Positions 4,801-12,258 of a stretch of DNA of 37,907 nt are shown here, piece by piece. The notes beneath the pieces are model-generated. The model searched no databases and was not told the DNA's origin. It was given only the letters and a program-made list of their open reading frames with translations. A program made the position numbers and the translations under genes. Positions within the stretch are counted from its first letter, which is position 1; each line of letters begins with the position of its first letter. The stretch spans positions 1-37,907 of the forward strand of contig CAIMLU010000052.1 in NCBI GenBank assembly GCA_903842365.1, read 5' to 3'. The DNA comes from an uncultured bacterium (GTDB taxonomy: Bacteria; Patescibacteriota; Minisyncoccia; Phycocordibacterales; UBA6065).

Positions 4801-5826
4801 ATTGCATCAACTACTTTTGAATCTATACCAAGTGCCACCTCAACAACAGTAACTCTAAACGTTTCTTCTCTATTCTCTGTAAGTAGTTCAACCTTGTTTA
4901 TCGATCAAAACAGTGACGGTACACCTGATATATCTCTCAAAGCCAATGAAAGTGGTGTAACGGTCTATGACACTACTTCTCCAACGATCACAGTAAATGC
5001 AGATGGAACCCTTGGTATGAATGGTTTCTACACTTCTCCTGTAACCATTACTTTCACCGCAGATGATCCTATGAAAGAGGGCGAGGTTTCTTCGGGTGTA
5101 GCTTCGACTACCTATTCGTTCGATAGAGGAATTACATGGAATACTTACAGCACGACTTCTCCTCTTCTTATCACTGCTCAAGGAACGACAACGATTCAAT
5201 ATTACTCTCTCGATAACAATGGTAATCAAGAGAAGACAAAAACGCTCACGTTCACCATTGATACCATTTCTCCGGTAGTTGTTATTACAACTCCAAATCA
5301 ATTGATCTACACCCATAGCGACACCATTCCGCTCTCTATTACTTCAACTGATGACGGAGGTGTTGCTTCAACCACAATTACTGTAAATGGTAGGGAAGTT
5401 GCAGACAATTCAGTCGACCTCTTCTTCCAAAGACTTGGAACGACAATGGTTTCAGCCTCTGTATCTGATATGGGTGGAAACACCTCTTCAGCAAGTACGT
5501 CATTCCGCATCATCGCCACCGCCTCCTCGACAATCTCCGACATCACCCGTGCCTTCACCTTGGGCTGGATCACTAAAGAAAACATCAAAGACACCCTCAT
5601 TAAAAAGATTGAAAAGATGGTAAAGCTTGAAACAAAGATTGATATCGTTACAGAAATCAAGAAAGGGAAGAAGGCAGAGAGGCATATTGAACGAATTGAA
5701 GAGAGGGTAGATAAAACCTTAGCAAAAGCACTTCTTCTCGACCTTAAAGCTTACGAGCGATCAAAGATTAATGAACGAGCATATACCCTTATCAAGGGAG
5801 ATGTTGAGTGGCTCATTAATTATTAA
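1831..5826 (+). CDS. Large secreted LCAT/PDAT-like alpha/beta hydrolase (lipase/acyltransferase-like) with C-terminal Ig/OmpL47-like repeats and charged coiled-coil tail
   Basis: 1331-aa ORF; N-terminal signal peptide (RTTLFLILVSFLFFLCGNVGAE); FFPGIMGSRL, YDWRLS, nucleophile elbow VAHSNGG, GTPEG, VDGDGTVVVPS and HKDIL as in LCAT-type hydrolases; repeats ending TISPVVVI / TTSPTITV. Confidence 0.75.
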   Translation: MDIFKRIRTTLFLILVSFLFFLCGNVGAEVNNPYVVDYKSRVTFGDSSEVDGYKGLENYQAQYIDEYLHLSYTITHGQQSWASFPPYLYFFGDDPTVPPGIGAFTVGSADLTSSYWNPTDYYFVNIQFSRNGYRTIVTRGRDKIPFSDNTSSIDGITDDVFVALANYATGQNEHSMAFQPMRIVEVAPSKFISFNVSTTTRTALVETYIAPKDMGAWVHFTISDSSENLVFSGSPVIATTSGVSTNVWQFPEVANTKTTQSQTFYAHIDLVYGSTTLRTKDVGVTFTPTKEGYPGHSNSVDSTSEYIDYAAQTLGTNLSGTLTQIDITTSNIAAIYYGSRPVIDLFECENDTYAGLPLLGGIGPGSGCTIIFSDVSGEASGLSTSTQHFYTPPIIFNPSKYYFFRVRGNNLLNILPIYYGSSEDKVDGACYRLNYSNGQAVPCSTISDLSFYLRGVTKTVSNPLCTENCNSNIMFFPGIMGSRLYDSEEKELWVSSGDSLQAKLSLDETGKSNNVIYIKDDTLRKEGEVDEKGIVDDVYGSNIYESFINDLRTWKGDGTNGIIHDYALIPYDWRLSLNDIVTNGATSTQDNLSYATPQDFSQSYIVKQLEQLQKSSRTGKVAIVAHSNGGFVTKALIQKLKDTNNPLYNKIDKVIFVAVPQVGTPEGLTALLHGTSMGPWGSVMINARSRDLAKNMPTAYNLLPSSDYFSIVDPGFAVDKVVSFQNTHAFDRQLLQYGMFISNEDEFKRYVLNDEGRAIPTYADTTYPATGNRALYNMAETVHSVLDNWLPASTTKVVQVAGWGEETLAGIDYTNTGRLSLKLRNVVDGDGTVVVPSALWMSTSTPNVERWWVDLKTYSDKNLFSRVHKDILEIQNLRTFIKSQINNSPFSDSENIVVNSTQTLISDGERLHFTLHSPLTLGITDSSGRYTGLDSVTGKVREEIPGVTYKQYGEVQFLSVPAGLEYTVTMKGYESGSFDFDVEKQAGNAVIASTTFESIPSATSTTVTLNVSSLFSVSSSTLFIDQNSDGTPDISLKANESGVTVYDTTSPTITVNADGTLGMNGFYTSPVTITFTADDPMKEGEVSSGVASTTYSFDRGITWNTYSTTSPLLITAQGTTTIQYYSLDNNGNQEKTKTLTFTIDTISPVVVITTPNQLIYTHSDTIPLSITSTDDGGVASTTITVNGREVADNSVDLFFQRLGTTMVSASVSDMGGNTSSASTSFRIIATASSTISDITRAFTLGWITKENIKDTLIKKIEKMVKLETKIDIVTEIKKGKKAERHIERIEERVDKTLAKALLLDLKAYERSKINERAYTLIKGDVEWLINY

Positions 5827-5839
5827 AATTTAATCTAAT

Positions 5840-6244
5840 ATGAAATATATAGAAAAAGTGTTGGGGTTGTTGACGAGAAAAAAAGTGTTATATTTTGGGA
5901 TTATAAGTCTGAGTATATTTTTTCTCTCGTATTACAGTCGAGAAATTGGATTGCCTTCATCATATGAAAAGTTTTGCTGTCTCGATGATAGAATATTTAA
6001 CCTATTTACTATAACTATTCCTGTGTGTATTTTTTCCATTATTTTTTTTAAGAATAATGGTTTTGAGAAATGGAAAAAATTTACTTTTATTTACTTATTT
6101 ACTTATTTACTTATTTACTTAATTGTGCCAACTCAAGGTGATGGGCTGATTTGGCTTCAAAGAGAAACGGTATCGTTTTTCGGAGTGATTGTATATTCAT
6201 TAATTTCGATCTTACTTATCTCCTACAAATCTCTCAAAAAATAA
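5840..6244 (+). CDS. Small multi-TM membrane protein, unknown function
   Basis: 134 aa with about 4 hydrophobic segments; homologous to the frameshifted copy at 6570-6987. Confidence 0.6.
   Translation: MKYIEKVLGLLTRKKVLYFGIISLSIFFLSYYSREIGLPSSYEKFCCLDDRIFNLFTITIPVCIFSIIFFKNNGFEKWKKFTFIYLFTYLLIYLIVPTQGDGLIWLQRETVSFFGVIVYSLISILLISYKSLKK
6097..6120 (+). repeat. Octanucleotide simple sequence repeat (TTTACTTA), about 4 units, inside ORF 5840-6244
   Basis: tttacttttatttacttatttacttatttacttatttacttaattg. Confidence 0.85.
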
Positions 6245-6245
6245 A

Positions 6246-6559
6246 CAGCAAATAATATCAGCACCATCTCCGACATCAATCGTACCTTCATCTTGGGCTG
6301 GATCACTAAAGAAAACATCAAAGACATCCTCATTAAAAAGATTGAAAAGATGGTGAAGCTTGAGACAAAGATTGATATCATTACAGAAACCAAGAAAGGG
6401 AAGAAGGTAGAGAGGCGCATTGAACACACCGAAGAGAGAATAGACAAAACCCTTGCAAAGGCACTCCTTCTCGACCTTAAAGCTTACGAGCGATCAAAAA
6501 TTAATGAACAGGCGTACAACGTGATTAAAGAGGATGTTGAATGGCTTATTAACAACTAA
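6246..6559 (+). pseudogene. Second copy of the lipase C-terminal coiled-coil tail (possible 88-aa ORF from TTG at 6293)
   Basis: TISDINRTFILGWITKENIKDILIKKIEKMVKLETKID... nearly identical to residues 1235-1331 of the 1831-5826 CDS; no plausible ATG. Confidence 0.65.
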
Positions 6560-6569
6560 AACTAAACAT

Positions 6570-6987
6570 ATGATATTAAAAATGGATTGGTTAACGAAAA
6601 AGAGGGCGATGATAATTTCGCTTGTCGGTGCACTTAGTTCAAGTTTTGTACTACAAAAGGATATTAACCATTTTCTTTTTTTATCCTGCAGGAATGGAAA
6701 AATTGAGTGGATTAGTGAATGTTTAAGTCTTAAAAATTATTCCATTCTGTTGCTTATAATAGGGGCAACTACCTTTGTTCCCGTTCTCGTTATGTATTTC
6801 TTAAAAAATAATGTTTTTGAATCTTGGAAAAAAACTTTACTTATTTACTTATAGGGATTTTTGTTCCATGGCATGGGGGAGATGCTTATTTACGTATCCA
6901 GAAAGATATAATCGCTATGGGTTTTTCAGTGTTGTACTTAATCTTCTCCTTACTCTTCATTTCCTACAAATCTCTCAAAAAATAAAC
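6570..6987 (+). pseudogene. Second copy of the small membrane ORF, frameshifted at an octanucleotide repeat
   Basis: N-half ...FLKNNVFESWKKTLLIYL* in one frame, C-half GIFVPWHGGDAYLRIQKDIIAMGFSVLYLIFSLLFISYKSLKK in another; both halves match ORF 5840-6244. Confidence 0.75.
6836..6853 (+). repeat. Same octanucleotide repeat, about 2 units, at the frameshift point of the second membrane ORF
   Basis: aaaaaactttacttatttacttataggg. Confidence 0.85.
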
Positions 6988-7137
6988 AGCAAATAATATC
7001 AGCACCATCTCCGACATCACCCGTACCTTCACCCTGGGTTGGATCTCAAAAAAACAGTAAAGGATGAACTTGTCGCAAAAGTGCAACAAGCAATCAAACT
7101 CGAAAAGAGAATTGATTTCATTAAGAAGAAGCTTTTA

Positions 7138-7175
7138 CAACAAAGGCCGGCACGCGAAGCGTGCCGGCCTTTTGC
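7138..7175 (+). terminator. Strong hairpin AAAGGCCGGCACGC gaa GCGTGCCGGCCTTTT
   Basis: Perfect inverted repeat followed by T-rich sequence; truncates tail copy C. Confidence 0.8.
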
Positions 7176-7214
7176 TGTTTTCAAACCCAACCTCGACACC
7201 AAGAACAGTTGCGC

Positions 7215-7442
7215 CCACGTGTAGTGGGGGGGTCAGGTGTGGGGAATCAAACCTTATACTACACAGATGATTCATGCCTCTGTGCTGCAGCGAAACATGC
7301 AGGAGCAACCATTCCAGATAATATGACGTACATAACTTCTCCAAGTCGAAGTTTATATGAGGGTTCTGCTAAAAAAGGAATCACTTCACAGCGTCAAATT
7401 GGAGCAAGTGGAAGCTTCACTATCTCCACAATCTCTCATTAA
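7215..7442 (+). pseudogene. LCCL-domain-like remnant
   Basis: GNQTLYYTDDSCLCAAAKHAGATIPDNMTYITSPSRSLYEGSAKKGITSQRQIGASGSFTIS resembles the LCCL pattern (YtdDSsiCrAAiHaG ... Y.Gs.rnGi.S); no convincing start, G7 tract at a frame change. Confidence 0.55.
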
Positions 7443-11300: not shown

Positions 11301-11532
11301 TTGAGGTATTTTTTTGCTCGGGATTACCAAGGGTTTATTTGGTTTTTAATAGAAAGGAAAAAAAAAGGAAGTGCCTCCATAAATCCAGTCAACACACCGG
11401 TTGACACACACCACTTTATATGCCAATATCACAACCGGATTTTCTTTCACAAAACCGTGGTTTATATACGTTTTAAAACAACGTAGAGACACCACTCATC
11501 ACTCAACAACCAAACCAAAAAGAGGTTTTATT

Positions 11533-12258
11533 GTGACTACTACATCTACCCGTCAGCAAAGGCTGTTTTATAACACCTGGAAAGAAGCCGGGTCTGCAGC
11601 ACAGAAGCTTGGGATCAAGAGTTCTATCGAGTATCAGAAACGGTACCGCGAAGACCCTCAATTGCCGAGTGCTCCCGATGTGGTCTACCCAGACTTCCCG
11701 ATGTGGAATGTGTTTTTGAACACTGGTCGAAAAGCGTATGTTAAAAATCCATACACAACTTGGAAAGAAGCTGGTGTTGCAGGAAATAGGCTTGGAATTA
11801 AGGGTTATTCTGAGTATCAAAAACGATGCCGCGAAGACCCTCGATTACCAAGCACTCCTTGGCAATTCTATCCAGACTTCCCGGGGTGGAGTGTGTTTTT
11901 GAACACTGGTCGAAAGACTCGGATTCAAAATCCATACACAACCTGGAAAGAAGCATCCGTTGCAGCACAAGGGCTTGGGATCAAGATTTCCACTGAGTAT
12001 CCGGAACGGTACCGCGAAGACCCTCGATTACCGAGTAATCCTTGGAGTTTCTACTCAGACTTCCCAGGATTTAAAACCTTTCTTAATACCGGTTTCTACA
12101 CCATCTGTGCTGAAGCATCCGCTGCAGCGCAGAAGCTTGGGATCAAGAGTCAACGTGAGTACCACAAACGGTACCGCGAAGACCCTCGGTTACACAGCGC
12201 TCCTCAAACGTTCTACCCAGACTTCCCGGGATTTAAGAAGTTTTTAGAGAAGGAGTGA
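11533..12258 (+). CDS. Protein made of four about 60-aa tandem repeats resembling the phage-integrase repeat unit
   Basis: Repeat consensus Y-TW-EA--AA--LGIKS--EY-KRYREDPRLPS-P--FYPDFPGF--FLNTG four times; GTG start at 11533 preceded by aagagg; ORF track start (11401 TTG) looks too early. Confidence 0.65.
   Translation: MTTTSTRQQRLFYNTWKEAGSAAQKLGIKSSIEYQKRYREDPQLPSAPDVVYPDFPMWNVFLNTGRKAYVKNPYTTWKEAGVAGNRLGIKGYSEYQKRCREDPRLPSTPWQFYPDFPGWSVFLNTGRKTRIQNPYTTWKEASVAAQGLGIKISTEYPERYREDPRLPSNPWSFYSDFPGFKTFLNTGFYTICAEASAAAQKLGIKSQREYHKRYREDPRLHSAPQTFYPDFPGFKKFLEKE

Follow-up and report, generated by a model that had tools for sequence, protein, structure and literature searches.

Orphan lipase 3′ ends and divergent membrane-partner genes lie in series behind an LCAT-type lipase gene in Patescibacteria

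Arrays of orphan immunity genes have been described in the T6SS clusters of Vibrio cholerae (PMC5361080), and at the TspA–TsaI locus of Staphylococcus aureus a 3′ fragment of the toxin gene lies inside a string of immunity genes (PMC9484751). S. aureus TslA is a secreted antibacterial phospholipase, and multiple non-identical TilA immunity genes are present at its locus (PMC10730906). Patescibacteria, ultra-small and for the most part uncultured, presumably live on other bacteria; which of the proteins they secrete serve as weapons is largely an open question. Here we analysed a contig of 37,907 nt (CAIMLU010000052.1; hereafter, the window) from an uncultured member of this group, in which a large lipase gene is followed by a series of lipase 3′ ends and small membrane-protein genes (Table 1). 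A limited literature search, in which absence is not proof, found no report of such a lipase–partner pair in Patescibacteria.

The lipase has a hydrophobic N-terminus, an AHSNGG nucleophile motif, an Ig-like region and a helical C-terminal tail, for which a FIMAH-like identity was considered and dropped, Pfam giving no match. The 3′ end of its gene (tail T1) is followed in order by the membrane-protein gene P1, an orphan lipase tail (T2), a second, broken membrane-protein gene (P2), a remnant tail (T3) and a terminator-like hairpin. The repeated unit comprises the last ~300 nt of the lipase gene together with the membrane ORF; the initial annotation, which had described a duplicated membrane ORF, had missed the much larger size of this unit as well as the third, broken lipase tail. 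Positions 5530–5829 and 6263–6562 are 86% identical, and positions 6218–6313 and 6959–7054 are 91% identical. In the window, the identity profile ran at 0.70–0.97 across the tail and at about 0.4–0.55 inside the ORF, with the exception of the region of a repeat tract (0.81) and a renewed rise at the end of the ORF.

Table 1 Features of the lipase–partner locus, in positions of the window
Feature	Position	Strand	Basis or remark
Large LCAT-type alpha/beta-hydrolase (lipase), 1331 aa	1831..5826	+	Pfam LCAT E=2.7e-9; sequence; homologues before P genes in relatives
Resident lipase 3′ end (tail T1)	5530..5826	+	86% identical to 6263-6562
P1, undamaged membrane-protein gene (134 aa; four long helices predicted), partner proximal to the lipase	5840..6244	+	ORF, family alignment, AlphaFold2 model
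Perfect TTTACTTA tract, 4.4 units, third helix of P1	6087..6121	+	Tract search, resampling
Orphan lipase 3′ end (tail T2)	6263..6559	+	Frame open throughout; lacks an ATG start
P2 upstream part (94 codons, then TAG)	6570..6854	+	Frame, family homology
Two TTTACTTA units at the P2 break	6836..6851	+	Tract count
P2 downstream part, −1 frame (GIFVPW...SLKK), undamaged further on	6854..6985	+	Homology
Third lipase tail (T3), broken off and frameshifted at a seven-A run	about 6995-7135	+	41% identical in amino acids over 7001-7162
Terminator-like hairpin of 14 pairs at the end of the array	7142..7172	+	Sequence

The surroundings of the array are as follows. A 23S rRNA gene, of which the 3′ portion is present (1–1520), and a 5S rRNA gene (1610–1717) come first, and the lipase gene begins about 110 nt after the latter; the 23S rRNA gene has about 300 nt beyond the model, a possible intron or insert. 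Directly behind the array, a short ORF (7161–7442) matches the C-terminal portion of the LCCL domain (E=8e-7); it adjoins a seven-G run and is probably a gene remnant. The ORF at 11401–12258 is built from units of the integrase-repeat type (Pfam PF14882, INT_rpt; E=6.8e-27) and has a 183-bp tandem repeat.

P1 and P2 belong to an unnamed family of ~135-aa proteins (P), predicted to be four-helix membrane proteins. The AlphaFold2 model of P1 was confident (mean pLDDT 88), with long helices at residues 13–35, 59–69, 75–95 and 108–133 and short helices at residues 2–10 and 50–56, and matched no solved structure in the PDB at E≤0.001. Pfam, NCBIfam and PADLOC returned no family for P as a whole, which makes it a membrane protein family absent from the profile libraries searched; the idea of a known defence protein was dropped because PADLOC gave no match. 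Membership of P in a known immunity family was not found in the Pfam, NCBIfam, PADLOC and PDB fold searches, a result that, as such families are many and unrelated, counts only against membership in any one of them. P1 and P2 share 36% amino acid identity, and an AU test rejected them as sisters (p=0.009). These comparisons indicate that the two are divergent members of different lineages of a diverse family and no recent duplicate pair. The duplicated ORF of the initial annotation is thus not borne out; P2 is best read as a broken, displaced copy.

P homologues were detected in 30 of 387 genomes in a class-wide search and in 54 of 397 in an order-wide search, a sample in which the genus is represented by this genome only. 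Across the ~50 Patescibacteria loci sampled, almost all first P copies immediately followed the gene of a large LCAT-type lipase; where the region was covered, the gap between the end of the lipase ORF and the first P gene was nearly always no more than tens of bases, except at contig edges and at L125, L129 and L130, three loci with no good lipase call. An LCAT gene was present in 48 of the 54 P-bearing genomes of the order sample and in 94 of 340 P-less ones (Fisher p=5e-18). Among the about 94 LCAT-positive genomes of the order in which P was not detectable, some lipase genes have genes for other small membrane proteins, without a Pfam match, behind them, and several have none; as LCAT lipases occur without P and even with no adjoining small membrane gene, toxicity of the lipase to its own cell is not a given. 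At one locus (L166), a lipase tail homologous to that of the window (35%, 99 positions) is followed by a different predicted membrane protein of 79 aa. The window lipase, used as a query in a scan of genome contigs, retrieved no relatives. At L151, L152 and L160, in genomes that lack P, a second small membrane family of about 114 aa with an FHT-WWGKT motif stands directly behind LCAT lipases; the two members scanned had no Pfam match, and the family is a candidate alternative partner.

About 20 loci carry more than one P copy, and one of them (L028, genome G217) has six. At ten loci (the window, L028, L091, L092, L094, L098, L101, L102, L103 and L115) an orphan lipase 3′ end precedes a distal P, ending at the lipase C-terminus or close by; it is the lipase tail, not the catalytic domain, that is repeated in the arrays. 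At the clearest loci (the window, L092 and L115) the tails are 86–97% identical in nucleotide sequence, as against 43–60% for the P genes; at L098 and L101, where the tails are less similar, the contrast is small. Differences between tails fell chiefly at third codon positions in the window (T1/T2, 23 of 40, p=0.0014) and at L091 (175 of 270), the tails of L092, L115 and L028 (T1/T2) having too few changes or no bias, and the orphan tails tested contained no stop codons. The third-position bias and the lack of stops therefore indicate that the tails diverged within working lipases before they were orphaned, not after duplication in place. Together with the AU test and the tree, this bias points to other alleles or strains as the source of the displaced genes. 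A simple tandem duplication that then decayed was rejected, given the unequal divergence of tails and P genes and the coding constraint in the tail differences; on these sequence comparisons, the array is to be read as cassette displacement, not duplication. Distances between lipase cores and between proximal P proteins were only weakly correlated (Mantel rho 0.24, p=0.008).

Decay was concentrated in the distal copies. Proximal P copies were intact in 53 cases and broken in 1, and distal copies were intact in 20 and broken in 11 (p=4e-5); two of the intact 'distal' copies are doubtful (L093, which lies at the edge of a contig, and L123, which has a second lipase of its own), and removing both leaves 18 intact and 11 broken. 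The fourth copy of L028, scored as intact and distal, has a frameshift near its start, so distal decay is, if anything, undercounted. The lesions comprise internal deletions, truncations and frameshifts, and P2 is one of this common class of broken displaced copies. Array copies are also frameshifted at homopolymers, in T3 (7039–7070, seven A) and on the reverse strand of L028 (about 3310, eight T), in keeping with a relaxation of selection once copies are displaced.

The break in P2 lies at a short repeat. Within the intact ORF of P1, a pure period-8 tract of 35 nt, with four perfect TTTACTTA units at 6090–6121, encodes the third helix. A tract of this length arose in 0 of 2,000 synonymous-codon resamples of P1 drawn with the codon usage of the window and in 0 of 5,000 drawn with that of P1 itself; the P1 tract exceeds chance. 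TTTACTTATTTACTTA had no further occurrence in the 813-kb genome. The tract of P2 (17 nt) was reached in 1.6–9% of the P1 resamples and alone would be weak evidence. As the initial annotation had observed, P1 has four units and P2 two, which sit exactly at the break: the frame that opens with ATG at 6570 meets a TAG (6852–6854) directly after them, and homology picks up again at 6854 in the −1 frame and continues to a TAA (6983–6985). Its frame arithmetic was also right, since the needed shift is obtained by adding two units or removing one; a third route is a +1 change in the seven-A run at 6828–6834, a second slippage-prone site that abuts the tract and could explain the shift. The conserved Trp is separated from the end of the third helix by 19 residues in 65 of 74 intact family copies, and P1 has this spacing; P2 is 16 nt short of it, exactly two units, so that a two-unit (16-nt) loss appears to be the simplest and likeliest history of P2.

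These observations can be joined in one account, which we consider probable: a secreted LCAT-type lipase with its cognate membrane partner P1, followed by older, displaced cassettes of immunity-type partners, of which P2 was broken by the 16-nt loss. Incoming lipase-plus-partner DNA would recombine within the lipase 3′ end, and the new pair would occupy the expressed place; the old lipase tail and partner would thereby be shifted downstream, as a cassette of an orphan lipase 3′ end and a divergent partner gene. The partner may be an immunity-type protein that guards the cell membrane against the cell's own lipase and that of its kin, in which case displaced partners could be retained for a time as spare immunity and then decay, P2 being a displaced copy that probably broke at a slippage-prone tract encoding its third membrane helix. 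What is observed here is how the cassettes are built, that they recur in relatives, that they are mosaic and that distal copies decay; the pattern of the array and its match to published arrays suggest the immunity function. P lies directly 3′ of the lipase, and divergent extra partners stand behind 3′-end remnants of the effector gene, which by analogy with effector–immunity arrays is the signature of stepwise cassette displacement. The other small membrane proteins found behind some P-less lipases speak for the account as well; against it speak the many LCAT lipases without P, the repetition of the tail instead of the catalytic domain, the weak correlation of lipase-core and proximal P distances and the small contrast between tails and P genes at L098 and L101.

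We weighed this account against a partner that serves the lipase as chaperone, anchor or export factor, with the array an amplification free of conflict. The strict adjacency and order of the genes and the membrane location of P would suit such a role. Amplification leaves unexplained why near-identical tails stand beside deeply divergent partners of different lineages and why orphan tails diverged under coding constraint, and related lipases manage without P; we therefore hold this reading to be unlikely. Other alternatives concern the break itself, for which genome G639 (L091) offers a comparison: its P copy is the sister of P2 (support 100/97) and is broken at the same site, in the same −1 relation and with the same 41-nt spacing, within a (TTTA)4 repeat. 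In both sisters the two halves evolve under coding constraint, third positions being the least conserved. The locus in G743 is identical to that of G639 over 12 kb and adds no independent case, the two genomes (Nomurabacteria GW2011_GWC2_42_20 and, for G743, L145, Yonathbacteria UBA12043) being listed as different species all the same. A P2 profile found only the G639/G743 locus in the scan of genome contigs, and a search for further P2-type copies in the families of G639 and G672 and among G402 relatives yielded no independent broken sister. With n=2, we lean towards two independent losses at a fragile site rather than an old break that was tolerated or used.

Were the break used, P2 could be a phase-variable partner, as the initial annotation had proposed, turned off and on reversibly by TTTACTTA slippage and caught in the off state in this genome. 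That proposal is sound in that the tract coincides exactly with the break and, its unit not being a multiple of three, sets the frame by its length; moreover, the downstream half of P2 carries none of the extra inactivating mutations that the initial annotation had contemplated, and the G639 sister is likewise broken in a short repeat. Two repeat units are too few for fast slippage, however, and two alone remain in P2. No variation in repeat number was seen, both assemblies of the G639 locus being identical, and no comparable tract occurs in the other intact family members, the one sister copy having (TTTA)4 at the same place. Close intact relatives (for example, L027 and L030) write the same helix in repeat-like AT-rich codons, which is why a repeat is able to form there, and the FIYLFxYL motif in such codons yields near-repeats unaided. 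Distal copies, finally, decay through many unrelated lesions, and the break falls in this displaced, often-broken class; we judge reversible switching improbable. Programmed frameshifting or a split gene, with P2 and its sister functional in the −1 arrangement, would account for the equal spacing and frame relation of the two and for the coding constraint on both halves. Inspection revealed no canonical −1 signal, with no slippery heptamer in frame in both sisters and no usual start codon for the downstream part near the break; the third helix of the product would be five residues below the family norm, and the independent cases number two, which makes this reading very doubtful. The broader idea that one P sublineage keeps the third-helix break on purpose, through repeat slippage or a frameshift signal, as a switchable reserve immunity gene is a long shot; if true, an uncultured epibiont-type bacterium would join an immunity array with a genetic switch. 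Under the displacement account, which we prefer, the locus illustrates how misleading a repeat at a frame break may be where the copy concerned is a displaced cassette, and the conserved lipase–partner pair with immunity-style arrays is a concrete candidate for antagonism among Patescibacteria.

Simple-repeat phase-variable genes, such as those of Haemophilus influenzae (PMC2651432), share with the window locus an intragenic repeat with a unit length indivisible by three, so that the reading frame depends on how many units are present; here, by contrast, the units are very few, no variation was observed and the broken copy is a displaced cassette. In the V. cholerae T6SS arrays, as here, the array stands at the 3′ end of the effector gene, with old immunity genes kept behind the current pair, and horizontal exchange through recombination (PMC5361080) would correspond to the process that we infer for the window. 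The window locus differs in that it retains C-terminal tails of a lipase, the host belongs to the Patescibacteria and the partner matches none of the known immunity families. At TspA–TsaI, too, divergent genes for polytopic membrane immunity proteins form strings immediately behind the toxin gene; TspA, however, is no lipase but a T7SS toxin that depolarises membranes, and TsaI belongs to DUF443, which P does not match. TslA–TilA shares a lipase with multiple non-identical partner genes at its locus; TslA, however, is a T7SS substrate of different build and TilA a DUF576 lipoprotein, whereas P, with its four long helices, is a membrane protein.
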